Under the pieces are notes generated by a model, which made no database searches, was not told where the DNA came from, and saw only the letters and a list, made by a program, of their open reading frames with translations. A DNA stretch of 27,628 bases from a virus: the IMG/VR virus record IMGVR_UViG_3300022752_000314, positions 1-27,628 of that record; one strand, given 5' to 3'. The position numbers and the translations under genes were made by a program. Positions 1 to 21,800 of the stretch are shown here, piece by piece (positions within the stretch are counted from its first letter, which is position 1; every line of letters starts with the position of its first letter).

Positions 1-672
1 GCTCAACAGGAACTTTATGGTGAGATGCTTGACAGTGTTGAAGGTGCTCTATGGACAGATGAGTTGATTGAAGCACATAGACAGAATGCTCTACCACTCA
101 ACACTCCACTTCGTTGTATTGGCGTTGACCCGTCAGTAGCAGAGAACCCTAGAGATGAATGTGGAATTGTTGTAGTCGCATCTACGGGTGAGAGAGATTT
201 GTATAAGCGTCAGGCTTGGGTGCTTGAAGATGCTAGCGTGCTTGGCTCACCTGAAGTGTGGGCTAACAGAGTTGTAGCAATGGCTCGTAAATGGGGATGC
301 CCAGTTATTGCTGAAGTAAACCAAGGTGGTGCTCTAGTTCGTAATGCTATCAATGCTATTGACCCAAACATCAAAGTACTTGAAGTACATAGCAAGTATG
401 GTAAGCAATTGCGTGCTGAGCCAGTAGTACTTGGTTATGAGCAAGGTCGTGTACATCACATTGGTTATCTACCAGACTTAGAATCACAGATGCTTAGTTG
501 GATTCCAGGTGAAGGTAAATCACCAGACAGAGTAGATGCTTTAGTTCACGCACTTACCGCTCTAATGATTAAGCCACCTGCTGGCTTCGTTGGTGGCAGA
601 CTAACTGCTAAGTCTATGGCTAGTCGCCGACTACCTGATTCAAAAGGTAGTGGCTTCCTAAGATTGAGATAA
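1..672 (+). CDS. Terminase large subunit, C-terminal part (5' truncated)
   Basis: The reading frame is open from base 1, so the N-terminal ATPase lies outside the window; 223 residues remain. This part is the RNase H/RuvC-like nuclease that cuts concatemeric DNA during packaging into the prohead. The visible start (QQELYGEMLD) is the usual ATPase-nuclease junction of actinophage terminases. Candidate metal-binding acids are D43 (in IGVDPS), E105 (in VIAEVNQGG) and D176/D179 (in SPDRVDALVHALT), which fit the family order D-E-D. The first internal ATG, at 25, lies inside the conserved region and is not a start. The gene ends directly at a bidirectional terminator facing the reverse-strand phosphatase gene. 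I am confident of the family; the length of the missing part cannot be seen. Confidence 0.93.
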   Translation, partial: AQQELYGEMLDSVEGALWTDELIEAHRQNALPLNTPLRCIGVDPSVAENPRDECGIVVVASTGERDLYKRQAWVLEDASVLGSPEVWANRVVAMARKWGCPVIAEVNQGGALVRNAINAIDPNIKVLEVHSKYGKQLRAEPVVLGYEQGRVHHIGYLPDLESQMLSWIPGEGKSPDRVDALVHALTALMIKPPAGFVGGRLTAKSMASRRLPDSKGSGFLRLR

Positions 673-714: not shown

Positions 715-1305
715 TTAGTTTCTCCACTTCCAGAGTGCTACTTTGTCTTCGTTGAGACCAAGTAGATAATCTACAAAGTGTTTATTGCATAAGACTGCTT
801 CTGAACGCTTCTCACGCATTACCGTGATTGCTTCTTCTGGTGAGTAGCCATCACGAATAAGCACAAGTGCCATCACAATACCACTGCGGTTGAGACCTGC
901 TTGACATCTGATTAGCACACGCTTACCAGACTTCCAGTCTTTGTGTGCCATCTTCACTATGTCTTCTAGTTCAGTCTCTGGGTTGAAGTCTCCCATAGCA
1001 CTGTCCCAGAAACCTAGTCGTACTTCTTTTACAAACCAGTCAGCAGGTTCAGCACTTGCGTACAATGTATATACCGAATCAAAATCTTCAGGCGTGATTC
1101 TTTTGTTTGGTCTATCAATCTGATAGTGCCAGTGGTCTTCTGCCCAGGTGTCTAGTGTCCCACCTTGCCATAGGTTAGGCAAAGTTTCAGTCCATAAGTC
1201 CCTAGGCATTACTGCGTGTCTAGGTCTTGTCAGTTCTTCTAGGCTAGAATCAATAATCTCTTGCCTTGCCGTAAAGTCGTCTTCTATTTTCTTTTGAGAT
1301 GTCAT
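715..1305 (-). CDS. Cysteine-dependent (dual-specificity/tyrosine type) protein phosphatase
   Basis: The protein has 196 residues. It carries the C-x5-R phosphate-binding loop as IRCQAGLNRSG, with nucleophile C134 and R140, followed by a typical long helix. The residue before the Cys is Arg, not the usual His of HCx5R, which may alter the pKa of the nucleophile. An N-terminal LPNLWQGG segment matches the start of the catalytic domain in related phage phosphatases; the acid-rich FWDSAMGD stretch may supply the general acid. A TTG at 1314 also lies in frame, but AAAGGA ends directly before it and stands 9 nt from the ATG at 1305, so I chose the ATG. The gene points against the packaging genes, has its own tandem promoters upstream and shares the terminator. 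It probably acts in the host cell, but the substrate is unknown. Confidence 0.82.
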   Translation of the reverse strand: MTSQKKIEDDFTARQEIIDSSLEELTRPRHAVMPRDLWTETLPNLWQGGTLDTWAEDHWHYQIDRPNKRITPEDFDSVYTLYASAEPADWFVKEVRLGFWDSAMGDFNPETELEDIVKMAHKDWKSGKRVLIRCQAGLNRSGIVMALVLIRDGYSPEEAITVMREKRSEAVLCNKHFVDYLLGLNEDKVALWKWRN

Positions 1306-1343
1306 TTCTATCAATCCTTTCGTCTTTATGTATTGATATATCT

Positions 1344-1444: not shown

Positions 1445-1975
1445 GCCCAACACACATACGGTTAGCCATTTGTTCCCAGTTATACCAGTTCCATATGTAT
1501 TCCTAGTACCCACACATACACGGGTGTTGCCCGGCTACTCTGTCTAGTACACGGGTGTCAGCCCAGTACCATAGGTCATACACATAAGGTGTCTTGTGTG
1601 TTGTGCCCTTTATTTACTTACCTCTTATGCTTTAGATGAGTGATGAGCCACTAAGCCCTCCCTGTTATGCCACATCATATGTAATGCCCACATACATTGA
1701 GCCCCATTCATCAGCATCTAAGATGCGGTCAGCCCTTTGTAGATAGTCCAACTATTATTGCCTTATATCTATGCCCCATCAGTGCCCACATTACAAATGC
1801 GGTCAATCCACATCTAATCAGCATTCTTTATACTTCTAAGACTGATATATGTCTAGTAGATGACTACTATTTCACTAATAAGATAGTCAAGCCCCCCTAG
1901 ACTACCTAGGTAATCACATAAGAAGCCCATACCTGCTAGGTAGGTGCTCCTAGGTTGGCTATATAGGCGGCCTAA

Positions 1976-2127
1976 TAAGTATTTGATAAGTCATCATAGA
2001 CTTGTTTAAGTATCAAATAAGTCTAAATAAGTACTCATAAGTGTCTAATAAGTATCAAATAAGTCTAAATAAGTGCTCATAAGTGTCTAATAAGTATCAA
2101 ATAAGTCATCTATAAGTAAAAATAAGT
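1976..2127. repeat. Helically phased TAAGT array, 14 copies
   Basis: TAAGT starts at 1976, 1987, 2007, 2018, 2028, 2038, 2049, 2060, 2070, 2080, 2091, 2102, 2113 and 2123. Steps are 10 or 11 bp except one double step, where a degenerate TAGAC occupies the empty slot at 1997. The mean is 147/14 = 10.5 bp, one turn of B-DNA, so every motif faces the same side of the helix. A 7-bp inverted repeat brackets the array: GCGGCCT at 1967-1973 and AGGCCGC at 2134-2140. Such a design suits cooperative binding by an oligomer that wraps DNA, for example a small-terminase ring, replication initiator or partition protein. The helix-turn-helix product encoded at 2354 is the nearest candidate ligand. Confidence 0.88.
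2008..2107. repeat. 42-bp tandem direct repeat, 2.4 units
   Basis: Units start at 2008, 2050 and 2092 with AAGTATCAAATAAGTC. Units one and two differ at a single base (GTACTC against GTGCTC); the third breaks off after 16 bp. The 42-bp unit equals four 10.5-bp turns and is the higher-order period of the TAAGT array, which points to growth by duplication under selection for helical phase. Confidence 0.9.
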
Positions 2128-2141
2128 GCCTGGAGGCCGCT

Positions 2142-2180
2142 AAATCGGCAAAAAAATCGGCATTTTTTCGGCATTTTTTT
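2142..2180. other. Phased A/T tracts with CGGCA repeats, probably curved DNA
   Basis: CGGCA occurs at 2146, 2158 and 2169, separated by a run of seven A (from 2150) and a run of six T (2163-2168), and followed by seven T (2174-2180). Tracts recurring at 11-12 bp normally bend DNA. The block lies directly beside the TAAGT array and could help wrap it round a protein. Confidence 0.6.
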
Positions 2181-2335
2181 CAGGAAACAATTTTCGAGGA
2201 GGTCAAAAGTAACGGTTGCCGTCTCACACGCCAAAGGCAAAAAACACTAATGTATCTTTTTTCTCCGTCAGTAATAAGTATTTATCGCATAAGGGCCACT
2301 CCCGGATTTTCCAAAAAAATCGTTCCTAGTACAGA

Positions 2336-2344
2336 TGCTAAAAT
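2336..2344 (+). promoter_or_regulatory. Extended -10 promoter candidate; likely leaderless mRNA
   Basis: TGC followed by TAAAAT forms an extended -10 element with no clear -35 (the upstream hexamer is A-rich). Transcription would start near 2351, three bases before the ATG at 2354. No Shine-Dalgarno sequence lies in the preceding 20 bases, so the message is probably leaderless, a mode common in Actinobacteria. Confidence 0.5.
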
Positions 2345-2353
2345 AAATACATT

Positions 2354-2875
2354 ATGGAAAACAGAGAATACGCCCGTGAACATCCACTACCCCAAGACGA
2401 AGTTGAGTTCATAAACGCCCTTACAAAGAAAGAACGCTACTACCGAGCCAAGCAACTATTTGATGGTGGTTGGACACTTCAATCAATAGGTAATGCGTTC
2501 ACCCCAGAAGCCAAACGCTCCACAGTTCAATACTGGACAAGCCAAGGCAACCCTAGATTTGCAAAAGATAAACCAGTTCCATCTCCTTGGGGCGGTTTCG
2601 TCGACGCTCCTATGCCTAAACCACAAAAGGGTTATCAACTCAAACGCCCTAAGTCTCCAGGTATTCCTAAGGATGTACAAGAGCGTCTACGCTATCTAGC
2701 CCCCCTTGCTCGTTTATATCGAAGTGGTATGTCGTCGACATCCCTAAATGGATTAGCCAACTCGGAAATGAACGACATAGTTCAAGACCTATACAATAAG
2801 AATGTCAAGATTGCTGAGATTGCCAAAGCATCGGGCGTAACTAGCAGAGCGATTGCTCGCAGATTAGGGAAATAG
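2354..2875 (+). CDS. Helix-turn-helix DNA-binding protein, small-terminase candidate
   Basis: The protein has 173 residues and two probable helix-turn-helix units. The first is at about 24-65 (RAKQLFDGGWTLQSIGNAF, then a recognition-helix-like STVQYW). The second is at the extreme C-terminus, about 147-173 (KIAEIAKASGVTSRAIARRLG). A basic Pro/Lys linker at about 75-105 and a helical segment lie between them. It is the first gene of the forward run, just downstream of the phased TAAGT array. Position and size suit a small terminase subunit that recognises the packaging site, or a repressor of this region. The start follows from the -10 element and the lack of an alternative ATG with a ribosome site. 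DNA binding is well supported; the specific role is inference. Confidence 0.8.
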   Translation: MENREYAREHPLPQDEVEFINALTKKERYYRAKQLFDGGWTLQSIGNAFTPEAKRSTVQYWTSQGNPRFAKDKPVPSPWGGFVDAPMPKPQKGYQLKRPKSPGIPKDVQERLRYLAPLARLYRSGMSSTSLNGLANSEMNDIVQDLYNKNVKIAEIAKASGVTSRAIARRLGK

Positions 2876-3570: not shown

Positions 3571-5397
3571 TTGGGCGTTTTCAGGCGTGATAAGTCAGTA
3601 CCACAGAATCCACCAACAAGAGGTATTCGTGCGTCTGCTCCAATCACTAATAACCTACCTGCTAACTCTGTCTTTCTGAAGCCAGTACCTAACGCTGCTT
3701 CAGCCGTTGCTTACAACACTCCACGAGCGTTGACCGCTGCCGCTGCTCAGATGAAGATTGGCGACAGAACAGAAGCCGAACAATTCAAGAACAGAAGGGC
3801 AGCAGCGTCTTCAGCGTGGCAATCAGAAGCGTGGGAATACTATGACGCAATCGGTGAAATCAAATATGCTTTCAACCTTGTTGCTTCTGTTGTATCTCGT
3901 ATTCGTTTGTATCCTGCCGTTGTCTCTAACCCAGCAGAATCTCCAAGCCCAATTAGAAATGTCGAAGCATTTGACCAGCGTATAGTTGCCGCAGCGGAGC
4001 GTGCTCTAGGCAGACTTGATTCTGCTTATGGTGGTCAGGCTGGACTTCTAAGAGACGCAGCACTAAACATTCAGGTAACTGGTGAGTGCTACCTAAGCCA
4101 GATTCCACTACGCCCATCAGACGGAACTCCAGAGTCTTGGGATATCCGTTCCGTTGACGAAATCAGCGTAGACAGTCGTGGCAATGTTGTTATCAGCCCA
4201 AGACGAGAATTGAAAACTGCTGGTGGTGGTTCCCAGAAGGGCGTTTATGTTTTGCCTAAGGGTGCGTTCATTGGTCGCATTTGGAAAGCACACCCACGCT
4301 TCTCTGAAGAAGCAGATTCTTCGATGCGTGGAATCCTAGACCTTTGTGCTGAACTACTTCTTCTAAACCGTACATTCCGTGCTACAGCACGCTCACGCCT
4401 AAACGCTGGTGCTCTTTACTTGCCAGATGGTCTATCGGTTGCTGCTAACCCAGACCCAGACTTCCCGTACTCAGACCCAGATGGTATTTACGAAGGCCCA
4501 ACTCCAGAGGAACTTGAAGACGAGTTCGAAGACCAACTTATGGATGCGATGACAACTCCTATTAAGGATGAAGATTCAGCATCTGCCGTTGTTCCACTTA
4601 TCATTCGTGGTCCTGCGGAACTTGGAGATAAAATCAAGCAGTTCAAGTTTGAGCGTTCATTCGACCCATCTCTTGCTCAGCGTGCTGACCGTGTGCTTGA
4701 GCGTATTCTTCAGGGTCTAGATGTTCCTAAGGACATCGTTACAGGTCTAGCAAATGTGAAGTACTCAAACGCACTTCAGATTGATGAGGCTCTGTACAAG
4801 GCTCACATTGAGCCGTTGATGCTTCTTATTGCTGACGCTCTTACTGTTGTCTATCTACGCCCTTACCTACTTGCTAACGGATTCACCGAGCCAGAAGTAG
4901 AACGCATTGTTGTTTGGTATGACCCATCACAGGTTGCTACTCGCAATGACCGTGCTGCTGACGCAGATATGGGATTCGACAAGATGGCTGTTTCTTATGA
5001 GACTTGGCGTAGAGCACACGGTTTCTCTGAAGCAGAAGCCCCAAGCCCAACTGAAGTTGCCTTGCGTCTACTTGTTGAAAAGGGAATGATTACTCCTGAA
5101 CTTACGGAAGCAATGCTTGGCGTTGTAGCCCCAGATGTTATGGAGAAGATTCGTGGAGCAGCACAGGCAGCACAGCCAACTCCACCAGTTCCAGGTCTAG
5201 ACCAAATGCTTCAAGGTGGTGAGCCACCAGCGGGTGGTGAAGCACCAGCAACACCTGAAACTACACCACCTGGACTAGCAGAGCCAAACGCACCAGCCGA
5301 AGCACCTGCGGAGAGTAGTCCACCGCCAATTACTCCTGGAGCGTCAGCACCAGAAGGATTAGCAGAACCTACACAACCACCACAGGAAAGTAAATAA
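3571..5397 (+). CDS. Portal protein
   Basis: The protein has 608 residues and starts at TTG, with TAGGAG about 8 nt upstream. The portal forms the dodecameric ring at one head vertex through which DNA enters and leaves, and it docks the terminase. Supporting features are the N-terminal YYDAIGEIKYAFNLVASV segment, the central GLDVPKDIVTGLANVKYSNA clip/stem-like region, and the ALYKAHIEPLMLLIADAL helix that precedes the C-terminal wing. Residues from about 535 to the end are a low-complexity Pro/Ala/Glu tail, probably disordered and inside or outside the head. The length is in the upper normal range for portals because of this tail. The stop overlaps the next ATG by one base (TAATG). Confidence 0.92.
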   Translation: MGVFRRDKSVPQNPPTRGIRASAPITNNLPANSVFLKPVPNAASAVAYNTPRALTAAAAQMKIGDRTEAEQFKNRRAAASSAWQSEAWEYYDAIGEIKYAFNLVASVVSRIRLYPAVVSNPAESPSPIRNVEAFDQRIVAAAERALGRLDSAYGGQAGLLRDAALNIQVTGECYLSQIPLRPSDGTPESWDIRSVDEISVDSRGNVVISPRRELKTAGGGSQKGVYVLPKGAFIGRIWKAHPRFSEEADSSMRGILDLCAELLLLNRTFRATARSRLNAGALYLPDGLSVAANPDPDFPYSDPDGIYEGPTPEELEDEFEDQLMDAMTTPIKDEDSASAVVPLIIRGPAELGDKIKQFKFERSFDPSLAQRADRVLERILQGLDVPKDIVTGLANVKYSNALQIDEALYKAHIEPLMLLIADALTVVYLRPYLLANGFTEPEVERIVVWYDPSQVATRNDRAADADMGFDKMAVSYETWRRAHGFSEAEAPSPTEVALRLLVEKGMITPELTEAMLGVVAPDVMEKIRGAAQAAQPTPPVPGLDQMLQGGEPPAGGEAPATPETTPPGLAEPNAPAEAPAESSPPPITPGASAPEGLAEPTQPPQESK

Positions 5398-5867
5398 TGC
5401 ATAGAGAGTTAGCAGAAAAGTTAGCAGTATGCTTAGGCGACACCGTTGCTTATAAATTCATTGCTCACGGTTATCACTGGAATGTGAAAGGACCATTGTT
5501 CTCTCAGTTCCACGAATTCTTCTCAGACCTATACGAAGACGCTGATTCAGCGATTGACCCACTTGCTGAAAACATTCGTAAGTTAGGGTTTGATTCACCT
5601 TTCACGCTAGAAGATTTTTCTTCATTGACTTGCTTGGACATCAACCCTGTTTCTGGCGACCCAATTGATATGGCATCTAATCTTTTGATTATCAACAAGC
5701 ACCTAAAAGAATGCTTGACTGGAGCCTTTGACATTGCTAATGCGTGTAATGAGCAGGGCATCGCAAACTTCTTAGCAGAGCGTATTGATATGCACTCTAA
5801 GTGGATTTGGCAGTTGTCTACAACTGTTGGAGCAGACGCTACATCTATTACTAGATTGGAACTCTAA
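5397..5867 (+). CDS. Dps/ferritin-like protein in the head operon
   Basis: The protein has 156 residues, the usual Dps length. The Dps signature is clear: YHWNVKGPLFSQFHEFF then AIDPLAENIRKLG. Against E. coli Dps, ferroxidase ligands H51, H63, D78 and E82 correspond to H27, H39, D54 and E58, while D67 corresponds to S43, with D44 beside it. So four of five ligands are kept and iron oxidation may be changed. The N-terminus is short and lacks the Lys-rich DNA-binding tail. Dps proteins form 12-subunit shells that oxidise and store iron and protect DNA. Here the gene is coupled to the portal (one-base overlap) and lies 2 nt before the giant gene, so the product is either co-expressed for host takeover or present in the virion. 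Confidence 0.85.
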   Translation: MHRELAEKLAVCLGDTVAYKFIAHGYHWNVKGPLFSQFHEFFSDLYEDADSAIDPLAENIRKLGFDSPFTLEDFSSLTCLDINPVSGDPIDMASNLLIINKHLKECLTGAFDIANACNEQGIANFLAERIDMHSKWIWQLSTTVGADATSITRLEL

Positions 5868-5869
5868 TA

Positions 5870-8800
5870 ATGAGTGAACAAGAAGACTCAGAATTTTTTG
5901 ACCCAGTTAGTGAGATAAACAAACTTCTATCTGATGAACGACCAGCACTTCCATCTATCTACAAAAAAATAGAGAAGTTAGATGTTGTTGGTGAAGGCAA
6001 GGCTATCGTTGCTTCGGCTAACGCTAAGGCACTTCCTACTCGCAGAATCGGCAAGTTCGAAATGCTTGAAGTTCTGGAAAGAAGCCTAAACAGGACTGTA
6101 CTAAATCTTGCTAACCCTGGAGAGCGTGTATTTACTGCTCTCCGAGAACTATCAGACTTTGTGAATATGGCAACTACAGGTGCTCAGCCTAAGATTGCTA
6201 ACGCACACAGAGACCTACTACCAGTAGGACACCCATTATCAACAAGAGAGCACAACTTCAGTCAAGAAGAAGTCGCTCAATTTCACGCTGAGTGGATGTC
6301 GGCAGACCCTAGAATTGCCGAAGAGTTCCGCCCGCTTGTTGCTTCTGCTTATAGAGCACCAGAAGCAAGCCTTGAGCGTGAATATGTAATAGCAAAGTTG
6401 GAGACAACAAGTGCTAACGAGGTTCCAAGGGATGTGATTCTCGGCTTGACGGCTGGGATAGACCCTTATGGCGGGGGGAACTCTTTTTTAGCCCGTTCGA
6501 TGCGTGCTAGGGCACAGCGTCGAGACAGAAGAGGTAGATTTGCTTGGATGGGTGGCGGAGCCAGAGTTTGGCTCGGTAAAGCCCTAAAAGGAATTTCAAC
6601 ATTATTTAGGTTCGCTGGCTATGATTCAAAGACAGACACCTTTGACCTAGAAATTTTCAATCACCCAACTCTTGGAACTGGTATCTATAGCGTTCCAGCA
6701 GACAAGGTTGAAGCGATAAAGGCTATTCTTCCAGATAGCGTAAACTTGGGAGCACCTAAGCCAACCCTAGTTTCCAAGAACATTCTTGTTGACCCAGCAA
6801 CGCTAGTAAAAAAAGAAGCACCTACTGGCTGGGAAAAAATTTCTAGCAAAGATGGCGTTGATGTTTTTCGTTCTGCTGATGGTTGGATAGCAACTCGCTA
6901 TGCTAATTCTGCTTCAGCACCTAACGAGCCAAGCATCACTAGAGTTCGTGGTGCCAATGATGACAAGAGCATAAACCCAGACCTACCTGTTTATCACCTT
7001 GCTAAAGGTTCTAATGATGGAACAGTTGTAGATAAGCCATTTGCTGTAACTCAGAGTTGGGGAGATACACAAGCACTTCTTGCTCGCTACGACAAAAAGA
7101 TGGCACCAAAGGAAGAGCAACCTAAAGCAACTCTCGAAGGAACATCACAAGAATTTATTGATGGATGGACAAAGGGTATTTATCAAGTTGCTAAGTCTGA
7201 TAACCAAAACCCATACCTTATTGAAAAAGAAGACACAGCAAATGGTAAGCCATCATTTACTGACCCTAGCGGTAGGTATATCGCTGTAAAACTTGCTACT
7301 GTAGTCTCTCCTAACTGGGGACCAGATGCTAATGGTATAAAAGAGAGAAGTGACTCGCTAACTAGAGCACAGGTTCTTGATAGTGGAAAGCCAATCCACA
7401 CTTTTGACGGTGCTCAAAAGTGGGATGGAAATGTCGAAAACCTATACAGACTTGAAAGAGTAAAAAGCGACGGCAGACGAGAAGTACTTGGTTTCTATCA
7501 AGACCCTGAAGACATCGAAAAAGATACCGAGATTCCACCTAGCGAGGACAAACCTCAAGATTTCTATGAAAGCGTTATTGCTGACACTCTACAGTGGGGT
7601 GGAAATACTATTGACTTTGTTGATGGCAACTCACCGCAAGACGGCTACATTATTGCTCACGAACCAGATGTACTAAAGCAAGACGGTACTATAGGTAAAA
7701 GAGAAGAGATTTACACTCCAGAACAGTTCACTGACCCAGTTGAAGGTCCAAAGATACTTCGTGAGTTTGCTCTAAAAAACTCTGACAAACTTACTCAGCA
7801 GGGTTTCTACTTAGGTACTTGGCTAGACACTGTTGATGTAACAGATGAAAACGGTAAAGTTATAGACCAGCGTGAGATGGTATTCCTAGATGTTAGCGAG
7901 TATGAGAAAGACTTTGATAAGGCATTCGACAAGGCTGAGGCCCGTGGGGAACTTGCTTACTATGGCGTATCTGAGGGTAAGAGTTTTTATGTTAAAGATG
8001 AAAAGCATAGACAAGAAACTCTTCGAAAAACTCCAATACTAGACCTTGAAGAAAATAGTCGTCTGAAACAAGCGTATGAAGATGCTAAGAAAAACTATAA
8101 CCAATGGTGGTATGCCAATAAAGACGAATACAACGCTATTGCTAAAAAGGGTCTGATTCAGGCTGTCCCAGATGAGCAAGGGCGTTATATGCCTAATCCA
8201 AGACTTGAGCAAGAAAACAAAGAACTTTATGATTTGTATCTTGCTAAATACAATGCTCAAGTTGCTTATAGCGACTATCAAGCAAACTATCTTCGCTCTA
8301 TTTTTGAGATGTCTCCTAGTGAATTCGGATTGCCTAGAAGAGACCCCGGTGCTGAAAACTATGGACTAAGCCAAGATGACCTAAAAATTAGAGATAGGTA
8401 TGTCGCTGATGATGTTCAAACTATCGCTAGAAATAAAAACTTGCGTGATGGTGGAGAGCCAACTCAAGAAGACCTTAAGTTAGATTACTTGATTAAGCAA
8501 TCAAGCCTAAAAGATGACACCGTTTTTTACAGAGGAATTGCTCTAGACCCTGAGTTGGTTAAAGAGATGTCACCTGGAGATAGTTTCTACAACAGAGCCT
8601 TTTCTTCAACTGCTCTAAATAAAGAAGTAGCACTTATTTATGTAAATGGTAGACAGCCACATACTCCAGATAAAGTAAAAACAGTATTTAGAATGCTTTG
8701 CCCTAAGGGTATGAACGCAATCCATGTTGGTGGAAATGAAGTAATTCTTCCACGCAATACTAAAATGCGTATACTTAGAAAGTCAGAAGTAGACGGCATA

Positions 8801-11800
8801 ACCTACTTTGATGTAGATGTTGAGCCTCAAACGAAAGAAGAAATAGATGCCAGAATCCAAGGGCGAGTCCCAAAACCTGAAGAATCTAAAGATGGTTCAA
8901 GTTCCAGCGAACTTCCAGGAAATGACGGAGGAGGAACAGATGGCTTGGGCGACCAAGGCCCATTCCCAGTTAATTACGGCCCTAAACCAGCAGGACAAGA
9001 ACAAACCCCAAGAGTAACTGACCCAAATAACGCAATTTGGTTCAGTACGCCTAAAGATTTATTGGGAGTAAGCCTAAATGACATAATTGGCGAGGCTACT
9101 GCCATAAATCAGTACAATGACCCAGAAAAACACTTGGCTAAAAGGCTAAAAGCACATGTCGCTCAATCTCTAACTAAAAAACTAAAAGATTTAGACAACG
9201 AAGAGTTTTTGAAGATGGCAGTGTCTTTGAGAATGTTTTTCAAAGACGATTTATATTGGGGAGATGACAGTCTAAAAGATATATCTACTATTCCAGTACT
9301 TTTTCACGATAAAGATGGTACAACTACTTATTACACCACCATTAGGGGATTAGTATTGCGTGGTCCTATGGGAGATATTCTCCCTAAAGACCTAATTGAT
9401 AGGCTAAATACCGAGAGAATATCTCGTGAAGATGCTAAAGAAGTAGTCAGACTTATGAATAAGTCTGATAAACATCCTGACTTAAATAAAATTGTTTTTA
9501 TAAATAAAGACAATGAAGAATATATGGGAATCCTAAGAGAGTCCGTAGCATCTAATCTTGTAGCACAGTGGGCATCTACTTCAAACGGTGATAACGCAAT
9601 GTCTCTCGCTATCCAAGACTTGGCTTTTAAGGAATTTGGAGTAGACAAACCAGCGGAGTGGAGAGTAAATGATGAAACTCTTGGCAAAATTTCTGAAATA
9701 AAAAATAATCACGAAAACTTCCTTAGAAAATTCTTGAGAGCACAGTACGACCTTACTCAAGAATATTTCCAGAAAAAGGGTATTTCTAAAATAACTCTTT
9801 ATCGTGGAGTAAAAAACTTTACTGCCCACGATATGACAAAATCTACCTTCCCTACTTCAAAAGGTTTTACAGCATCTATTCGACTAAGACCTCTATCTGC
9901 TTGGTCAACTAGCGAGGGAATAGCAATTGGTTTTAGTAGAGGAGCAGATTCAAAGATATTCCGTAAGGAATTTGATGTCAAAGACATATTTGCTTTCCCT
10001 GGCACTGGTGTTGGCTGTTATGACGAAAAGGAAATGGTAGTTCTAGGTGGTGTAACTGATAGCGTGGACATAGCAGACTACAGCCCTGTCGACACTCCTA
10101 GCGTTTCTTACAATTCTCCAGAGCCACAGGCAATTACATATAAAGAAGACCAGCCTCAAATACAGGTGAACAACGCTCCTATAAGCAACGCTCCTAAAAA
10201 GATGTCGAACACAGAGCGTAAGAGACTTGAAAGAGCCCAAAAACTTGCTGAAAAAGAAGCAGCACCATCTTCAGAAGAAGTCAAGCAACAAATGGAGCAA
10301 GCCCGACAGGATATCGCTCAGGTTGCTCAGGCTATTCCAGAAAGTGTTGATTCACTATTCGACTCAAGTAATCCGCTAAACATTCTAAATGCTAGGAATA
10401 TCACTAACGACATTACTGGCTCTAGAACAAATAGAAATAATCTTTCTAAAGATGATTTGCTTAGCCAAAAACTATTATTTATGGAACCAACTAAGGAATG
10501 GTACGACTTACTAGACCGTATTGAAAAGTCTGGCGAACCGTTTGCTAAGCAAATTATTAGCAGAATAAAGCAAAAGCACGACAGACTAATCAAAAAAATT
10601 GAGCAAAACACCATTGAAGAAAGACAGGCTCAGGTTGAGTACGACAACACACTGAAAGAACTTCACAATGTTGTCAATACCTTAGTAAATAATGCTTTGG
10701 CTAACCCTAATGATGTGCCTGGCTTGAATGTCATAACTGTCCCACTAATGGCAAAACTGGATACATACTTCAATGGCAATCCTAATAATGAAGTATTGGT
10801 AAGAAACCCTTATCTATTGGGTATGGCTCTTATGTCTTTGTATGCCACAAATGACCCAAGAATCGCTCAGGCTAATCCAGATTTTGATGCTAATGAAGTT
10901 TCTAAAGTAATAACTGACCTAGTAAACAAATTTAGGGCTGCGTATACCAGATATGGTTCCAATGCTAGTGGAAGTGCTTTTGCCGTTCCAGACAGAACAG
11001 CATTAGTAAAAGAAGTTCAAAGAATTTATATTGAAAACTTGTTTGGTGGACTAAACCCTACTAATCCTCACTCTACTATAGCGATGCTTGCCAAACTATC
11101 TCACGATTCTTCTTTAGACCCAATTCTTCCTAAGGACTCTATAAAAGTTATTAGTAGCAAGTCTAAAGATTTGCGTTCTTCTATGGACAGGCTGACTCTA
11201 AAAAGAGCAGAAACTATTTCAAATAAAAAGAAATTAGCCAAGGAACTTTCAGATACTACTAAAGAAGTGCTTTCTGAAAGTGGTCTGGAGTTCAACCACG
11301 GAGTCAAGTTATCAGCAAATGATATAACTTGGACTGGCGTACACGATTTCCAGTTTGGCTCTAACCCTGTAACTAAAAAATTAGAGTTCCAACCTACTCA
11401 GATGCCAGATTATATAAAGAATAAAACTGCTTCTGAACTAAGAAATGTAAATGGCATAGTTGATGTAGTCAATGAAGCAATTCAGTCCTACCCTAAGCCA
11501 GTGGCACTAGCCCTAAAGCAGTTCCTGATTGATAATAAATCAAGTTTCTCTTTCTTCACTGGCTCTAGAGGTGTTACAGCATTAGTAAATCCAGACGAAC
11601 TATATAAGGCTCACGACATTGGAGACCTTAGCAATGTAATCAAAAAACTTGGAATATCTGGATATAATAAGGATGAGGCCGTTGAGACTACCGTTCACGA
11701 ATTGCTACACCTTATAGTAAATGGAATCTTTAGAAACCAAATGAACTCAATCGCTTGGGCTAAGCAATCTAAGGAAACCAATATTGAAGGTCCAAATGGC

Positions 11801-12235
11801 AAAATTTCTCACAACTTTGTGGACTCTAACTATGGAAACATTGGTTTCACTATGAATGGAGACTACTTAGACGCTGAAGACATTATGTCTTTGATATCTG
11901 CCAATGAACTAGGTGCTGCTTCACCAAATTATGCTGGTCCTTATATTGGTAAATACGGTGTGGCTGCTGGTGCTCAGGTTGCTTTAGGTCAGAGCCCATT
12001 CTCTCACGGTGAACTTCTAAGTACCTTATTTGAGTCCCTACTTGGTGGTGGCTTGAGTGGTATGTTCTCAACTTATATGAACCCTAAAAGAGTGCTGTCT
12101 GGAACTAACCCAGACGGTACCCCAAAATATATATCTATGGACTCTAGCGTTTTTTCTGAGGGAATGATGCCTTTTGGAGTTAGTATGATTGTATTGCTAA
12201 ATGAATTAGCAAAGCAGAAGTTAGGAATAGCATAA
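5870..12235 (+). CDS. Giant multidomain head protein: two ADP-ribosyltransferase folds and an HExxH protease-like domain
   Basis: The protein has 2121 residues. The N-terminal ~200 residues are unassigned. Residues 203-232 form a basic helix with QRRDR, GRFA and MGGG, followed by a small beta domain ending in GTGIYSVPADKV; this module recurs in the 4242-residue protein. The first ADP-ribosyltransferase fold is at about 880-985: R888 in FYRG, SSTA at 912-915 and a lone catalytic-type E957 in GNEVILPRNT, with Gly at the first acid position. The second, at about 1302-1420, has R1312 in LYRG, STS at 1346-1348 and E1386-K-E1388, the complete signature. Residues 1443-1486 look like a charged coiled coil. 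HELLH at 1943-1947 marks a zinc metalloprotease-like domain. The start ATG has only a weak ribosome site, suggesting coupling to the Dps-like gene. T4 Alt is a known injected ADP-ribosyltransferase; the same role here is inference. Confidence 0.85.
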   Translation: MSEQEDSEFFDPVSEINKLLSDERPALPSIYKKIEKLDVVGEGKAIVASANAKALPTRRIGKFEMLEVLERSLNRTVLNLANPGERVFTALRELSDFVNMATTGAQPKIANAHRDLLPVGHPLSTREHNFSQEEVAQFHAEWMSADPRIAEEFRPLVASAYRAPEASLEREYVIAKLETTSANEVPRDVILGLTAGIDPYGGGNSFLARSMRARAQRRDRRGRFAWMGGGARVWLGKALKGISTLFRFAGYDSKTDTFDLEIFNHPTLGTGIYSVPADKVEAIKAILPDSVNLGAPKPTLVSKNILVDPATLVKKEAPTGWEKISSKDGVDVFRSADGWIATRYANSASAPNEPSITRVRGANDDKSINPDLPVYHLAKGSNDGTVVDKPFAVTQSWGDTQALLARYDKKMAPKEEQPKATLEGTSQEFIDGWTKGIYQVAKSDNQNPYLIEKEDTANGKPSFTDPSGRYIAVKLATVVSPNWGPDANGIKERSDSLTRAQVLDSGKPIHTFDGAQKWDGNVENLYRLERVKSDGRREVLGFYQDPEDIEKDTEIPPSEDKPQDFYESVIADTLQWGGNTIDFVDGNSPQDGYIIAHEPDVLKQDGTIGKREEIYTPEQFTDPVEGPKILREFALKNSDKLTQQGFYLGTWLDTVDVTDENGKVIDQREMVFLDVSEYEKDFDKAFDKAEARGELAYYGVSEGKSFYVKDEKHRQETLRKTPILDLEENSRLKQAYEDAKKNYNQWWYANKDEYNAIAKKGLIQAVPDEQGRYMPNPRLEQENKELYDLYLAKYNAQVAYSDYQANYLRSIFEMSPSEFGLPRRDPGAENYGLSQDDLKIRDRYVADDVQTIARNKNLRDGGEPTQEDLKLDYLIKQSSLKDDTVFYRGIALDPELVKEMSPGDSFYNRAFSSTALNKEVALIYVNGRQPHTPDKVKTVFRMLCPKGMNAIHVGGNEVILPRNTKMRILRKSEVDGITYFDVDVEPQTKEEIDARIQGRVPKPEESKDGSSSSELPGNDGGGTDGLGDQGPFPVNYGPKPAGQEQTPRVTDPNNAIWFSTPKDLLGVSLNDIIGEATAINQYNDPEKHLAKRLKAHVAQSLTKKLKDLDNEEFLKMAVSLRMFFKDDLYWGDDSLKDISTIPVLFHDKDGTTTYYTTIRGLVLRGPMGDILPKDLIDRLNTERISREDAKEVVRLMNKSDKHPDLNKIVFINKDNEEYMGILRESVASNLVAQWASTSNGDNAMSLAIQDLAFKEFGVDKPAEWRVNDETLGKISEIKNNHENFLRKFLRAQYDLTQEYFQKKGISKITLYRGVKNFTAHDMTKSTFPTSKGFTASIRLRPLSAWSTSEGIAIGFSRGADSKIFRKEFDVKDIFAFPGTGVGCYDEKEMVVLGGVTDSVDIADYSPVDTPSVSYNSPEPQAITYKEDQPQIQVNNAPISNAPKKMSNTERKRLERAQKLAEKEAAPSSEEVKQQMEQARQDIAQVAQAIPESVDSLFDSSNPLNILNARNITNDITGSRTNRNNLSKDDLLSQKLLFMEPTKEWYDLLDRIEKSGEPFAKQIISRIKQKHDRLIKKIEQNTIEERQAQVEYDNTLKELHNVVNTLVNNALANPNDVPGLNVITVPLMAKLDTYFNGNPNNEVLVRNPYLLGMALMSLYATNDPRIAQANPDFDANEVSKVITDLVNKFRAAYTRYGSNASGSAFAVPDRTALVKEVQRIYIENLFGGLNPTNPHSTIAMLAKLSHDSSLDPILPKDSIKVISSKSKDLRSSMDRLTLKRAETISNKKKLAKELSDTTKEVLSESGLEFNHGVKLSANDITWTGVHDFQFGSNPVTKKLEFQPTQMPDYIKNKTASELRNVNGIVDVVNEAIQSYPKPVALALKQFLIDNKSSFSFFTGSRGVTALVNPDELYKAHDIGDLSNVIKKLGISGYNKDEAVETTVHELLHLIVNGIFRNQMNSIAWAKQSKETNIEGPNGKISHNFVDSNYGNIGFTMNGDYLDAEDIMSLISANELGAASPNYAGPYIGKYGVAAGAQVALGQSPFSHGELLSTLFESLLGGGLSGMFSTYMNPKRVLSGTNPDGTPKYISMDSSVFSEGMMPFGVSMIVLLNELAKQKLGIA

Positions 12236-12847: not shown

Positions 12848-15800
12848 ATGACCTACGCCTTCGGCATTTACTTTGAAGATGATGACAACCTAGGACTGGT
12901 GGCGGCAGGTAATCGCTGGACTTCTGGTGGAAACTCTGCTCTGGCCCGTCGTCTTCGTGTTGCTATGCAACGCCGTGACCGTTATGGTCGCTGGGCTGAA
13001 ATGGGTGGTGGAATCTCTTTCCCTGGCCGTCTACCAGATGGCAGTGTAAGTAAGTTCGTTGGTCGCTATGTCGGTCCTGCTGAGCGTCAAGACTATATGC
13101 GTGTCTATGTAACAGACGGCAGACGACCTGGAATCTATGAAGTTCCTTGTAAGGTTGCTACTGTAGCAAAGGCTCTTCTAAAAGAAGGCGACCTAAAGAA
13201 CGCTGGTGTAAACCTAGATGTCAATGGTAAGACTGTAGGTGAAGTTCTTGATAAGGACATCGAGTTTGTCGACCAAATGTGGAAAGGCAACAAGCCTAGC
13301 GACTTTGAACTCGATATGGCTCGTGGAAAAGTATCTCCAACAGAGAAGAAGGCAATTGTAAAGGCTCGCCTAAAGGCACCAGCCCACAAGTCATACAATA
13401 TTGTTGATGAAAAAGGCGTTCGCATTGACAAAGACGAAGTTCCGTCTACTCCAGAAGTAAAGAAGCCAAGTAAAAAGGCTAAGCCAGCCGAAGTATTCCC
13501 AATTCCAGATTTGTCTAAGTTAGATGATAAGGAACGCAACCGTCGTGAGTGGTATGTAGATGCTAATGGTAAGCGTATCCCTGCTAACAAACTTACTGAA
13601 GCAGATAAAACTCCAGAGAACCGTCGTATCCGTGATTTGGATAACAACAGAGTTCTAGATGGCAATGGTCATCTTGTAGAGTTCAAGCCAACATCTAAGC
13701 CAGAAGCAAATCCAATTCCACAGGGTGAGTTCCACCCTGTCGTTGAGCCAGACGATGGTTTCTGGAATGCTAACAATGTAAAGCCAGAAGAAGTTCAGAA
13801 AGACATCACTGACCCTCAGGCAGCATACGATGCTCTATTTGATGGTGGATTCATTGAAGTATCTCCAGAAGTGGCATTGGCAGCAGTTGACATTGCTGCT
13901 AAAGATATGCCTTTCCTTGGTAGAGATGAAAACCCTCTATTCCAGTCAAAGCCTGATGACCCTAGATTTAGAGAGATTGCTAATATTTTGGCTTCTCTAC
14001 CGTCTGCTCAGGAGACAAGACTAAAGCGTGCTATCAACTTGGCTCTAATGAGCGAAGACAAAATCAACGCTCTAAAGGCCTTCCTAGACAACAATGTTGA
14101 AGAAGGAACTGGTCTATCACCAGAAGCAATGAAAGAACTTCACCGCAAGTTCCGTAACCTTGGTGTTGACATTACAAATATGCGTATCAAGGGTCAGGAT
14201 GCGTTCAGCAACGACAACCTTGGTGCTGAGCGTATCAATATGCCACAACTTGACGCAGCAGACCAAGCAGACTTCCTTGCTTACTGTAAGAAACTTGGCG
14301 TTGGATTCCACGAAGCCACCGCTACACCACAGCAACTTCACCCTATCCAAGCAGAAATGGATATGGGAGATGTTGGAAAGATTATGGCATCTTGGCTTAG
14401 CCCAGAACTTCGTAAGAAGTACGGTATGGATGACCAGTATCTATTTGTTACCAGAGATGGTTATGTTCTAGATGGACACCACAGATGGTCATCTGCTCTT
14501 CTTGCTGAAATGAAGAGCGGTCAGCCCATCAACCTAAAGGTAATGGTTCTAGATATGGACCACGAGAATGCCTTGAAGTTTGTAAACGAGTACAACGACC
14601 ATGTTGGTATTACTCGTCAAATGGTTGGCGGGAAGAATGTCGCTCAGCCACGCCCTGAAGCACAGAAAGCAGAACTACCTGCGTCTGAGCCAGTAAACCT
14701 AATTTTGAATAGGGCTCCTAAAAACCCTAATCAACCAAGTTCTGGTGCTAATGGACCAGATGGCTCACCTATTGAGTCTTGGCTTGATAGGCAGTTGGCA
14801 AATAACGGAGACCTCATTAAGGCTCAGTTTGCTGACAGACTTACCGAAGACAAGCCGAATGTGGCTGAACCTAGGTCTCCGCTACCGGGCTCAAAGACAG
14901 TTGTAGATAACCTACTAAAGTACAGAGATAGTCTTCGTGCTAGCCTAATTGACGCTTCTCTAGATGGCGACCAAGAACTATTCAAATTTAGATTTGAAAT
15001 CGCTAAGAGAGTTTCTAATCTTCTAAATCAGATTTATGACAACTATAGAAACGGTCACGACTACACCAGAGATACTGAAATTGCTCTTAGTACTAGCAAC
15101 CCTGATGAAAAACTAAAGGCTTTCAGAATCCTACCTAACACCATGGTCACCCATGTTGACAACAATGGTGTAAAAATTATTGACTCATTCGATGCTATAA
15201 CCATTGCAAAAAATGGTATGCCATTCGTAATTCGCTGGAAAAAGAGTGGTAGCAGTACCGCTTACAGAGTGGCGGCAGATGGAACCGTAGACTTCAATGC
15301 CCATGAAGGCGATTGGGCTTACGGTGGTGGTCTAGGTCACAATGGTAGCCAAGACTATAGAAGGGCTGCTGACGGTAAATTTGTTCCTAGTACAGCAGTT
15401 AGCGGTTCTGCATTTACTGACAAGAAAAGTCAAGCACTTGGTCTTATGAGTGGTCACATCTTCCTAACTCGTTGGGTACAAACTCAGTTTATGGAAAATG
15501 CTCGCTTAAGCCACAGCAGTACTTTGTATGCCCCTGGAACTTTTTATAGCAAAACTGTTTCTAAAGATATGCGTGACCACCACAGAAGTCAGGCAGATAA
15601 AGCAGTTCATCAAAATAACCCTAATGGAGATATCTTCAAAGTATTGAAGGCCATGGGTCTTGTAAATGGAACATATATTCCTTTTGATAGAAATGCTACC
15701 GATAACCAGCCAGGTGGTGGAGGTAGCAATAGCGGTGGTAATGGTTGGCTCAAAAGAATAACTCCATCAAACCAGAGTGGTGGAACTACCACTCAATCAG

Positions 15801-18800
15801 TACTGGACTCATTCTCTATAAATGATGCAGTTAGCCAGTATTACGAAACTTTTGCTAGAAAGAGTGAAGCAGATAAGCAGACAATTCTAGATGCTATGCC
15901 TGAAGTATTTAGAGAATACTTTACTGGGGCACCTTCTAGACCTGAATGGATGAAGTATCAAAACTTCGATGTTCAGTATGGAATGCTAGGCACTGTCTAC
16001 TCAGATGGTATGAAGAAGCAGGAAGCAATAGACTTCCTAGACAGAATTATTACTGGCCTACCTCAACTTCACAGGGCATTTGGAGCAAGAGAAGATTCTT
16101 CATCTGCCAGAATTGCTAAATTAACCGCACTAAAAGATGCTATCAATGCTCACCAGTGGGACCAAGCAAACAACAACTACAACAGACCTAAGCCTTTCAA
16201 CACAAACAGCATTAGAGTTATGGAATCTCCATTTGCTGGAAACTTCAAATTTGGTGACTGGACTGTTGAAAGAGACCTTAAGAGAGTTATAAACGAACTT
16301 CCGTTCACTCCTGGTGGAAAACCTGATGGTGCACCTGACCACTGGACAGAGAACCCTAGCGAACTAGAGCAACGATTTAGCCCAGAAACTCTTCTAGAAG
16401 TTCTTACCAATTCATTGAAGAACGATGGCGGAAAAGTGGCACACCTACCTGCTGATTCTTCAGGTAGAGACCCTATTGATGTCAACCCTACTGCCGTATA
16501 CAAAGCCCTAGAAAACCACGGTTTTGATACTGAGAAGATGCTTGCTGAAATTTATGATGACATAAATGGAAACAGTGCTAACTTGGATGCTCTACTAGCA
16601 AAGAGAAGCGACCTTGGAAACCTTAATGACATTATTGCTCAACTTGCTAGCGAAGTAGGAACCTTAGAAGAGCCTGTAGTATTCAGCCAAATCGGTGGAG
16701 ACTATGACCCTGCTAATGGTGGAGTTCTACAGTCTGACCTAATCAAACGCCACTGGGAAAATGTTGACGGTAACCCTGCTCTTGATTTGAAAGAACTAGA
16801 GGCGGTCAACGAGTCATACTATGACGCTAATAGAAATAGGTTGATTGACGGTAAAGCCTACACTCCTAAAGTTGCTAACAGACAGTTCTATACTGCTGGA
16901 GTTGCTGACAACCCTAAGATTATTGCTAGAAACTTCTCTCCTAGAGGTCTAAGCAATGCTTTGACTGACGCTATTCAAAATAGCAGAACAACCGTAAAAC
17001 TAAAATTCCCGAACGGTCAGGAATTAGAAGTAGAAAACGCAGCCATTAGAGATGCTCTACAGCATCAGGGCTACGATGTAAATAAACTACTTAGCGAAAT
17101 GTCTGGTATCAAGCCAGAACCTAAGAGACCAAGTTTCCTAACTGCTGAAACAAATCAGGCTGGCGATGAGGCTTACCAATGGAATGGAATCGGTTCATCT
17201 GTATTTGCAGACAATGTTCCAGTAATTCTTGAAAAAGGTTCAGCAGATAATCGTGCGACATTTAATGGAAATGTCTATGAAATTGGTTTGGCAAGTGGAA
17301 CTGATGGGGAGAGACAAACTTTCACCGCAAAACTTGCTAAAATTCAAAAAAATGCAGACGGTAAGTTTGAAGTTTGGGTAGCCAAAAAAGAAGACAACTT
17401 CGTTGGTGAGTTCAGTGGAGCCCCAGACGGTGTCTATCCTAATTTTGGAAATGCTTTGTACGATGTACAAAAGCATGCAATGTCGGAATTGAACCTGTCT
17501 CGTGGAACATCTATGCACGATAACTATGCCACTGAGCCTAGATTATCTACAAATCTAGATGAGCACTCAGTAATCAACAATGATTCTCCAGATGCTGTAG
17601 AAGTTGCTGGTATGACAATTTCTAGACCTGGCAATACTGGGACTACTCAAATATTTGAAAACAGCAATGGTATTCGCAGAATCAACAACACTCTGATTAC
17701 TGGAACTACTCGTGTATACAGTTTGAACTCAAACCCACTTGCTGGTGAAGACAGTCCACTAGAAAACCTAGTTAGACACACTACAGATGCTGATGGCAAT
17801 CAGATAAATACAGATGTATATAGCATCACCAAAGTATCTGACCCTAATCTAAACGATAAGTATGTTGTCCAACTGCTTGGTGGTAAAGACTCTTCTACTG
17901 GCTTAGAATTGCCACCTCAGAATCTAGTTTTAAGTGATTTAAATATTGCTAGAAGCATAGCAAGAAGACACGCATACATTACTGAAGGCAATGACCTAAA
18001 TGGCATAAATAATGACCGTGCTCAACTTTTGTCTAACATTAATTCAGTAGCACCTTCTGCTTCAGTAGAAAATATGCACATCGCTTCAGATACCAACTCT
18101 ACAGTTGCTGGTACTCCTATAAAACTTGCTGGTGGTGTAGAAGGTAAGTTGGTAGTTCAGGTCAAAAAGGGTGCTCACCCTGCTTGGCGTAGAGGTGTTC
18201 CAGACTCAGATAACAGATATGTTTACGCAACCGTAGATATCACTAACCCAGATGGTAGTGAAAAATATGGAAGTTATCAGATAGTTAGAACTGCTCTAAG
18301 AAGATGGACAATTCAACCTACCTTAAGTCCTATGATGTCTGGTGTACGAAACCCATTTGTGGGAAATTACCTACCTACATATAGCAACTACTACCACGAT
18401 AAGCAAGATGCTTTAAATTATCTAAAAAACACAGTCAACAGACAATTCTTAGGTCAAAACCCAGGCAACAAGTCTTTGTTCCCTGAAGAAAGAGTGGTAA
18501 ATGTTGCTAACCCTGCTCCTAATGCTTTAAACCCTGCTGTTGCACCTAGAGCATCAGAAAACTTCCTATCTGATGATAAGTTCTCGGACTTTGTTGCTCA
18601 GCGTGGTCAGGTACTTGACCTAACTGGAGCAGTACAGCAAGGCGGTATGGGTGGAGGTGCTTCTGGCTCTCTGAAATTTGAATTTAATGGTAAAAAATTC
18701 AAAATTAAATATGAAGGTGATGACAAAGCCAGACAAGAATCTTTTAACCACGCTATATACAAACTTGTAGGTATTCAAACTACTGAAGCATTGCTTGGTA

Positions 18801-21800
18801 CTGGTATCCCTAATTTAATTCCGCCTCGTGACCGTAACCTTGGGCCTGTGACCATAGTTCTAGCAGATGAATTTGAACCAAATATTGTTCCTGGTCGTGC
18901 TAATGGTCACATGAATGGTCAGGCAGTATTTAATGGAAGTTCATTCACAAAACCTGAGAATCAGCAAGCAATTGCCGATTTACAAGAGGGTCTACTAATG
19001 GATGTTCTTACTAATAATGGCGACATTATGGGTAACACTGGCAACACATTTATTGCTATTAGAAATGGTATTCGCCGTGGTGTCCGTTGTGACAATGGTT
19101 CTGGCGGTGTTTACGAAGCAATTGGAAATAGTCGTAGCGATGGATTCATTAATAGAGATGCTTCTGACAGACTGAAAAGTACTTTCGGTGATTTTATGGC
19201 TCGTGGAGTAGTCAAGGGAACTACCGATGACGGAAGTTTGAAGAGGGGGCTTACTCCAGACTCACTTAAGGCTATTGCTAGAAGAACCATTCTGCCACTA
19301 ACAGATGACAAGATTGATGCCTTAGTTCAGGGAATCATCACAAATGACCGTGATAAGAGAGACCTAGCACAGCACTTGAAGCGTCGCCGCCTTGAGATGC
19401 TGAACTATATGGGAATTGACCCTAACTCAGAGCCACCTCAGGGTGAATCAGCAAACATACCTAATGTTATTCCAGGTAATATTCCACCTAACTTGGCAGA
19501 CAACGGCTATGAATTTGTCTCTGACAATGCTAATGGCACACCAAGAATAAAGATGGCTGGTTCTGTAGATGCTAATGGAGTATTTAGACCTTCTCATTTT
19601 GATAACCTACCTACAGATGTAAAGGCTCAACTACGCTACGGTCAGTTATTACCAGAGAACCTACCATTTATCTCACATAACAGCGACCATCCTTCATTGG
19701 TAATTGACGGTGCTGGAATAGTCAGACCAATCGGTAAAAATGGTATGACTTCTATCTTTATCCGTAAGCGTAAAGCAGACGGTACTTATGAGTATCTTTA
19801 CATCAAGCAAGGTGAAAACGGAAACAAAAAAATCCTAGACACCAACAGACAGCAACTTATGCCAATCGTTCACAATAACGAGGATGGCTCAGACAAGTCT
19901 CTTGAAGAAATGTTGGCATCAGAAGGATTCTCTGGAATTCCTGTAGTTAGCAGTAAGGAAATGCGTCTTGCTATTCCTGGCTTGGGTCAAGACCACAGAA
20001 TTATTGTGGCTGATATTGGCAGTGAAGACATTTCTGGTGTTCTAAGTAGAGCAAATACAAATGGCGTAACTAGAGAAGCAATATGGAGACAAGTAGAGCG
20101 TCTAAAAACTAGACCTGAGTACTACTATAACCAGTTGAATGGCAACGACGACAAGAATTCTGTTGTCAACCAACTTCAGGAATGGGAAAGAACTTGGGCT
20201 TCATCACCATCTGCCGAGCCTAGTGCTGATGGCGGAGATATTGGCGGTAACGGAGATGGAAACGGTCCTACTGGCGGTAACGGTGGAGGCCCATCTGGTT
20301 CTAGTTCCGATACTTCTGGCCCTTCAGACGGTCCAGAGGGAGATGGCTGGAGAGCAACACGCTCCATGGCTTTCAGAGATGCAAATGGAAATGTTAATCG
20401 AAACAGCGGCGGTGTAGTATTCCAATCTCACCCTAATGGCGGAATTAGAGTATTTGACGACAGCAATAACGAAGTTCAAGGTGAGATTTTACCTACTTAC
20501 CACGGCCACTGGGTAGCCACATTTATGCCTAATGATATTGACAATGTCAATAGAGATAGAAGAAATGGTAGAGCAATCAAGGGTATCTTTGCTTCTAAGC
20601 AGGATGCTGCTAACTGGCTTGCTAAAAAGGTTTATGACAAGTATGGAGTTCCAGAGGGCGATGGCGGAAACCGTAGACCATTTAATGAAGGTGGTACTGG
20701 TGACTATAACCCTAACGCTGCTCCATATGTAGAAATTAAAAAGGGTTTCCTAAACCCTACTACCGAAAACCAGCGTAATTTGGCTAATCGTCTAGTTGAC
20801 CACAAACAAGCAACTCCTGAAGAGCGTGCTTTGTTCCGTGCTATGTTGACTCAGGATAACTTGACTGTTGGTGAAGTTGGATATGTAATCAATAAACTCA
20901 AGGATAGAGACGACAGAGATTCTGCCGAACTTGCTGAGTCAAGAAGAGTTCGTGACGAGGCTGCCGCTGCTAATCCAATTCAGCCTTCTACTCTTGAAAG
21001 AGTTATTGAGCCACCAGATGTTGTTCCAGTTATTGCTTGGAACCTAAGACCTGGTCATAGAATTCTTGGCAAGGTAAATGGAAATGTTGTATTTACTGCT
21101 CCAGGTGAAAACAACACTATCAATGTTGGTGTTGTAAAGGATGATGGAAAACTACATGTTTACAAGGTAAACCGTAGCACTGTTATTGCTTGTTCTAACC
21201 AGCAAGTTGCTCAAGCAACCACTAATGCTGTACCTACTCACCCTGTAATTCAACAGCGTAGAGCACAGGCAAGGCTTATTCAGGACCAAATCAAGGCCCT
21301 ATACCCTAACCACCGTGAACTTCCTAATGGAGATTTGATTGTTGGTCAGCGTGACCACAGACAGGCAGATGGCAGAGTATTCCGCTATGAAGCAGTAGTT
21401 CACAAACTAAAGTCTGATGAATTTATTAGTTATGTCCGTAAGCAACAGATTGATACTAATGGAAACCCTGTTGGTGAATCAAGGGCTGCTTATCTAACTG
21501 TTCCTGGACACTCTCCAAAGGCAGTAAAGGGAAGACTTGCTAGGGAAGTAATGAGTGTAATCAACTCAGCAAACCCAGCAAACGGGTTCAATCAGAAGCA
21601 ACACGAGCCAGAAGTTACTAATCCAGCGACTGGACTGCCACTACCAGCAAGTCTTGTAAACCAGAACGCTCAGTTCATTGGCACTACTGGAATTGAAAAA
21701 ACTGGAAACGCTACTAAAGATGCTTTGATTTCTTATGTACAAAATCTAGTTGCTAGAGGTATGGCTCACCCTGAAATTATTGAGCAAGTAATTGGTAAAA

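Follow-up and report, generated by a model that had tools for sequence, protein, structure and literature searches.

Between the large terminase gene (terL) and a gene for a protein with two helix-turn-helix (HTH) domains (HTH-B), the viral DNA analyzed here carries a helically phased array of the word TAAGT, followed by a conserved noncoding block that resembles the right genome ends of phages with long direct terminal repeats (DTRs). On the evidence of sequence comparison, we consider it likely that the array is the recognition part of a terminase site at the phage's right genome end, where a long DTR has its right border; there, an oligomer of an HTH protein or of the small terminase (TerS) would contact one half-site per turn. 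Through this array the viral packaging machine probably recognizes its own DNA, and we present it as a candidate terminase site whose recognition element is unusually regular and helically phased. The stretch studied (the window) comprises positions 1 to 27,628 of IMG/VR record IMGVR_UViG_3300022752_000314, and its features are listed in Table 1.

Exact copies of TAAGT start at positions 1976, 1987, 2007, 2018, 2028, 2038, 2049, 2060, 2070, 2080, 2091, 2102, 2113, and 2123, with spacings of 11, 20, 11, 10, 10, 11, 11, 10, 10, 11, 11, 11, and 10 bp. As an initial annotation had reported, they fill 14 of 15 slots at a mean pitch of 147/14 = 10.50 bp, which is also the best-fitting period. The "missing" slot is occupied by a degenerate word in phase, TAGAC, and a further in-phase degenerate word, GAGGC, makes a sixteenth. 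All the TAAGT words are asymmetric, share the same orientation, and occur once per turn. Such a density is far above chance: when the intergenic region was simulated 2,000 times with a first-order Markov model, no 160-bp stretch contained more than 5 TAAGT, against 14 observed. Two other elements of that annotation held only in part. The 42-bp tandem unit exists but is restricted to 2.4 copies covering 2007-2107, and the two arms of the bracketing 7-bp inverted repeat are both present in the window but are not kept in the aligned relatives.

Table 1 Features of the window around the phased array
Feature	Position	Strand	Basis or remark
terL, 3′ part of the large terminase gene	1..672	+	
Dual-specificity phosphatase-like gene, divergent from HTH-B	715..1314	-	
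Left inverted-repeat arm, GCGGCCT	1967..1973	.	Imperfectly conserved
Phased array, 15 slots, 14 exact TAAGT, pitch 10.5 bp	1976..2127	+	Word positions and grid decoding
Degenerate in-phase slot, TAGAC	1997..2001	+	
Sixteenth in-phase degenerate word, GAGGC, inside the right inverted-repeat arm	2133..2137	+	
Right inverted-repeat arm, AGGCCGC	2134..2140	.	Imperfectly conserved
Whole conserved noncoding block, used as profile	2141..2353	+	
Three CGGCA copies, each followed by an A/T tract, 11-12 bp apart	2146..2181	+	
Conserved box GGAAACAATTT, left of the predicted genome end	2183..2193	+	
Predicted physical right genome end (right DTR border), ± a few bp	2216..2217	.	Homology to deposited ends
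Conserved box TCTCACACGCCAAAGGCA, right of the predicted end	2222..2239	+	
Likely extended -10 element TGCTAAAAT of the downstream operon	2336..2344	+	Conservation, consensus inference
HTH-B, 173 aa, two HTH domains	2354..2875	+	Directly after terL or after the block in relatives

Coding heptads likewise produce 10.5-bp steps (half a heptad is 10.5 bp), so the reading frames had to be considered. A hidden coding coiled coil as the source of the period is ruled out by stops in all six frames, and the array is noncoding. The region also gave no match to a curated RNA family in Rfam. Direct pattern matches in unrelated viral contigs (L003-L017), with TAAGT at 11/11/10/11 spacing, apparently lie in reverse-strand coding sequence for leucine-rich coiled coils and look like coding decoys for phased-motif searches. 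In the noncoding stretch to the left of the array (1500-1810), words like ATGCGGTCAGCC and ACACGGGTG recur, in the window and in relatives alike.

Relatives were gathered through homologues of the downstream HTH-B gene, and the array sits at the same place in them. When aligned on a 10.5-bp grid, 11 relatives have 12 slots each, extending over exactly 115 bp (11 turns) from first to last with zero indels; the 15 slots of the window (147 bp, 14 turns) make its array three whole turns longer. The slot words vary among the relatives (TAAGT, GAAGT, TATGT, TAGGC, etc.) within a single code, nAnGY, in which the second position is A in 124/132 slots, the fourth is G in 128/132, and the fifth is a pyrimidine in 129/132, counts somewhat inflated by the choice of each slot as the best of ±1 bp. 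These three positions are nearly fixed while the linkers between slots drift. Of the seven close members tested in a period scan compared against dinucleotide shuffles, six had a best period of 10.5 bp and L027 one of 10.25; in six divergent relatives (L148-L150, L154, L155, and L161), whose slot word is TAGGC with T-tracts between, it was 10.5-10.75 bp. Judged from these alignments, the helical register is retained while the sequence changes, and the array is old and under selection. The strictly kept register also supports the proposal that the motif is presented on one face of the helix, once per turn.

The phasing is not shared by the whole family. Phased pentamers beside the homologous gene, which the initial annotation had proposed to look for, are present in close and divergent members, but 10.5-bp phasing is undetectable in L152, L158, L162, L164, and L203 despite the same end block. 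The ends of isolated Microbacterium and Arthrobacter phages also differ from the array, as no 10.5-bp phasing was detectable in any of those examined; their comb scores peak at every period tested, which is a composition effect. Phasing is therefore not essential to all such ends, and the 10.5-bp register is one solution rather than a universal need. Three relatives (L158, L160, and L162) have repeats near 21 bp (two turns), e.g., CATTCGTATCCAAACAATAAT, 110-300 bp upstream of HTH-B, and DSL-LC01 showed neither a significant block (a weak match, E = 1.4) nor a phased array.

A comb scan of two whole 135-kb relatives, G1 and G2, ranked the array by far the highest: it scored 96.6 in G1 and 73.5 in G2, whereas the runners-up reached 32.7 and 29.5, respectively. 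No second such array was found in either genome, including before other genes. The array is noncoding, unique in each of these genomes, and conserved, as would be expected of a terminase recognition site.

Its position relative to a genome end was predicted from the adjoining block. The isolated relatives that also carry this downstream gene, large phages of Microbacterium and Arthrobacter, have exact direct terminal repeats of 15.5-20.5 kb in their deposited records. A profile of the block was built from 12 freshwater relatives, with the Microbacterium and Arthrobacter phages left out of training. Its best match in the whole genome of Zooman (E = 0.003, 17030-17130) covers the right DTR border at 17079, and the right border is likewise the best match in the whole genomes of Cece and A3Wally, in Big4, for which only the genome ends were searched, and in the searched part of Racecar. 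In the Arthrobacter phage Mimi the border ranks second, behind one better chance match elsewhere; the border match of Atuin is weaker, that of Pumpernickel was missed by the profile, and Gordonia phages without HTH-B gave no block match. In single genomes the E-values ranged from 0.003 to 4, which is modest. When the profile was broadened to 47 freshwater members, it gave only three matches with E < 5 in ~1.4 Mb, all of them on these borders.

In Cece, A3Wally, Atuin, and Mimi, the border is at model positions 74-75, corresponding to 2215-2216 of the window, with the deposited end of Big4 ~10 bp further left, and a GAAAC-type box and a TCTCA-CCAAA box flank the end in nearly all the phages compared side by side. 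The right genome end of the window is therefore predicted at about 2216|2217. This cut would fall between GGAAACAATTT and the TCTCAC..GCCAAAGGCA boxes, about 80-240 bp to the right of the array slots and ~80 bp past the last of them. The right ends of the Microbacterium phages Zooman, Big4, Cece, and A3Wally and of the Arthrobacter phages Mimi, Racecar, and Atuin are homologous to the block, so the early guess of a pac- or cos-type site is well supported as far as location is concerned. These phages also carry relatives of HTH-B. The terL gene lies close to the array both in the window and in the relatives.

The array lies in a divergent intergenic region, between the phosphatase gene and the late operon of HTH-B and the portal protein, and a conserved leaderless-type -10 element precedes HTH-B, itself a protein with two HTH domains. 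One could accordingly imagine the array as an operator or enhancer to which HTH-B or HTH-A binds cooperatively, its proximity to a genome end being incidental. We regard such a transcriptional role as unlikely: the predicted genome end lies between the array and the promoter, which are 200-370 bp apart, no comparable array precedes other genes in G1 or G2, and the end block occurs independently of HTH-B in other lineages. In a group with 44% identity, terL abuts HTH-B (37 bp) and the block lies ~2.1-2.2 kb upstream, before HTH-A, and in the Microbacterium phages the block lies several kb before terL. These placements, before HTH-A or far from terL, argue that the block is not merely the promoter of HTH-B.

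The opposite end of the DTR offers a candidate for the small terminase. In Big4 and Atuin, the first gene starts 19-63 bp (within about 65 bp) from the left DTR end and matches the TerS family phrog_2538; homologues of this gene lie 28.8-29.5 kb to the left of the block in five freshwater relatives. No significant homology at the DNA level was found for the left DTR border. G1 and G2 close as circles through exact overlaps of 108 and 114 bp, as expected if a long DTR had collapsed in assembly. The linear genomes of the freshwater phages are thus predicted to have a DTR of ~29 kb with TerS at its left border and the array at its right. Like these relatives, the Microbacterium and Arthrobacter phages have a TerS-like gene at the left end and terL near the right end, except that terL lies outside the DTR in the Microbacterium phages, whereas it is predicted to be inside the ~29-kb DTR of the freshwater relatives. 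A stem-loop with apparently compensating stem changes and the loop CAGYCTCTCCCCMGT is conserved in L057 (G001:C1, ~70420-70465) and also in G2, G3, G5, and G6, some 20-60 bp before the TerS-like gene; it may mark the left genome end.

The product of HTH-B was compared with known TerS families. Its best Pfam terminase match, Terminase_5, scored 16.9 bits, under the cut-off of 20.3, phrog_7067 was matched with E = 0.035, and a fold search with a structure model of low confidence (pLDDT 63) gave no useful match (E > 1). As the terminase match is below cut-off and the gene at the opposite DTR end is the stronger TerS candidate, HTH-B is probably not the small terminase. A second protein with two HTH domains, HTH-A (G001:C1:95814-96485 and W04:C1:16447-17025), is encoded just before terL in the freshwater phages and ~650 bp before the right genome end of the Microbacterium phage Big4.

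Predicted curvature was calculated with wedge parameters of the Bolshoy type. Within G1 and G2, no stretch is predicted to be more curved than the end of the array together with the CGGCA/T-tract block, and the CGGCA/A-T tract element lies at the end of this stretch. The arrays of the window, G1, L149, L154, and L161 are curved far above shuffles, and the divergent arrays combine phased T-tracts with TAGGC. This would suit a purely structural role in which phased A/T-rich and G/C-rich steps curve the DNA and TAAGT is not read base-specifically, a form of conformational selection that has been proposed for the SF6/SPP1 pac (PMC4737164). We judge it rather unlikely that structure is the whole explanation, since nearly fixed slot positions beside drifting linkers speak for base-specific reading, and the arrays of G2 and L024 retain the code yet, taken alone, are no more curved than shuffles.

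An AT-rich, curved region with repeated sites at a genome end might also be an origin, or the site at which the long terminal repeat is duplicated, a step that long DTRs require, bound by an initiator in the manner of iterons rather than by terminase. This seems quite unlikely. The cumulative GC skew has no turning point at the array in the circular G1 and G2, the homology of the block is to the genome end itself, and a 5-bp motif on every single turn does not resemble known iterons.

The initial annotation had further considered a phage centromere, a reading that would imply a plasmid-like prophage state. Like the array, the ParR-parC and TubR-tubC systems have short direct repeats about one turn apart, with DNA wrapped on an oligomer, and in Type II centromeres the direct repeats are 10-11 bp (PMC5016525). 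However, no tubulin-family (TubZ) or ParA-family gene that could act as the motor was found in the two circular 135-kb relatives, in searches whose positive controls worked (in the ParM search, no control gave a match), and the array lies at a predicted, terminase-linked genome end, upstream of an HTH gene rather than of a par operon. A partition centromere of the ParR/TubR kind is therefore disfavored, and we hold it to be highly improbable.

Returning to terminase recognition, we infer how the site would work in this phage, covering the binding protein, the wrapping, the cut, and the packaging role. A phage DNA-binding protein would act as an oligomer and contact a short asymmetric half-site (nAnGY, here TAAGT) once per helical turn on a single face of the DNA; the simplest candidates are the small terminase and the HTH-A and HTH-B proteins encoded around terL. 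By wrapping or bending the intrinsically bendable DNA, this oligomer would bring the large terminase into place for a cut near 2216|2217, ~80 bp to the right. Small asymmetric words that all point the same way and recur at each turn are what a head-to-tail oligomer lying along one side of the helix would be expected to read. Tentatively, the array might even be the DNA-side imprint of a ring of small terminase (or of HTH-A/B), one HTH per half-site per turn, whose motif drifts and whose phase is kept, a possibility to which we give less weight than to terminase recognition as such.

Whether DNA is wrapped around the small-terminase ring or threaded through it has long been debated, and the known pac sites provide little sequence evidence. 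If true, the imprint reading would give evidence, in the sequence itself, that terminase recognition wraps DNA in a nucleosome-like way. The wrapping model could be tested cleanly on such a natural substrate, a family-wide array conserved in register over 12-15 turns next to a genome end, and the array would also provide a sequence rule for locating genome ends in uncultured long-DTR phages, where circular assemblies hide them.

Neighboring HTH motifs in small-terminase rings are about one turn of B-DNA apart (PMC4737164), and a wrapping model with bendable DNA has been proposed for SF6/SPP1 (PMC4737164, PMC9611059). Like the array, the SPP1/SF6 pac is ~100 bp of DNA near the terminase genes, bendable and alternating in AT/GC, and in the model one HTH contact is made per helical turn around the ring (PMC4737164, PMC9611059). 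We found no description of a regularly phased motif there, whereas here a 5-bp word recurs every 10.5 bp over 12-15 turns. SPP1 and SF6 also use a headful pac, whereas the array lies at a predicted DTR end. Like the array, lambda cosB and HK97 cos place a recognition element beside the cleavage site at a genome end, although here a long direct terminal repeat without cohesive ends is predicted. In lambda, the R sites are few, and they are not known to recur in phase on every turn. The HK97 site binds its ring differently, without a long phased array, the HK97 complex indicating another mode of small-terminase binding (PMC11331095). The HK97 cos site is read through an A-tract adjoining C:G pairs (PMC11331095); here, T-tracts next to CGGCA lie between the array and the predicted cut.

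Further downstream in the window, a ferritin/Dps-like gene (5397-5867) lies between the portal gene and the first of two giant ORFs (5870-12235, 2121 aa, and 12848-25576, 4242 aa). Both giant ORFs have a common GGNS.LAR...RRDR.GR.A.MGGG stretch near their N-termini, and the first contains segments that resemble, by eye, ADP-ribosyltransferase motifs.
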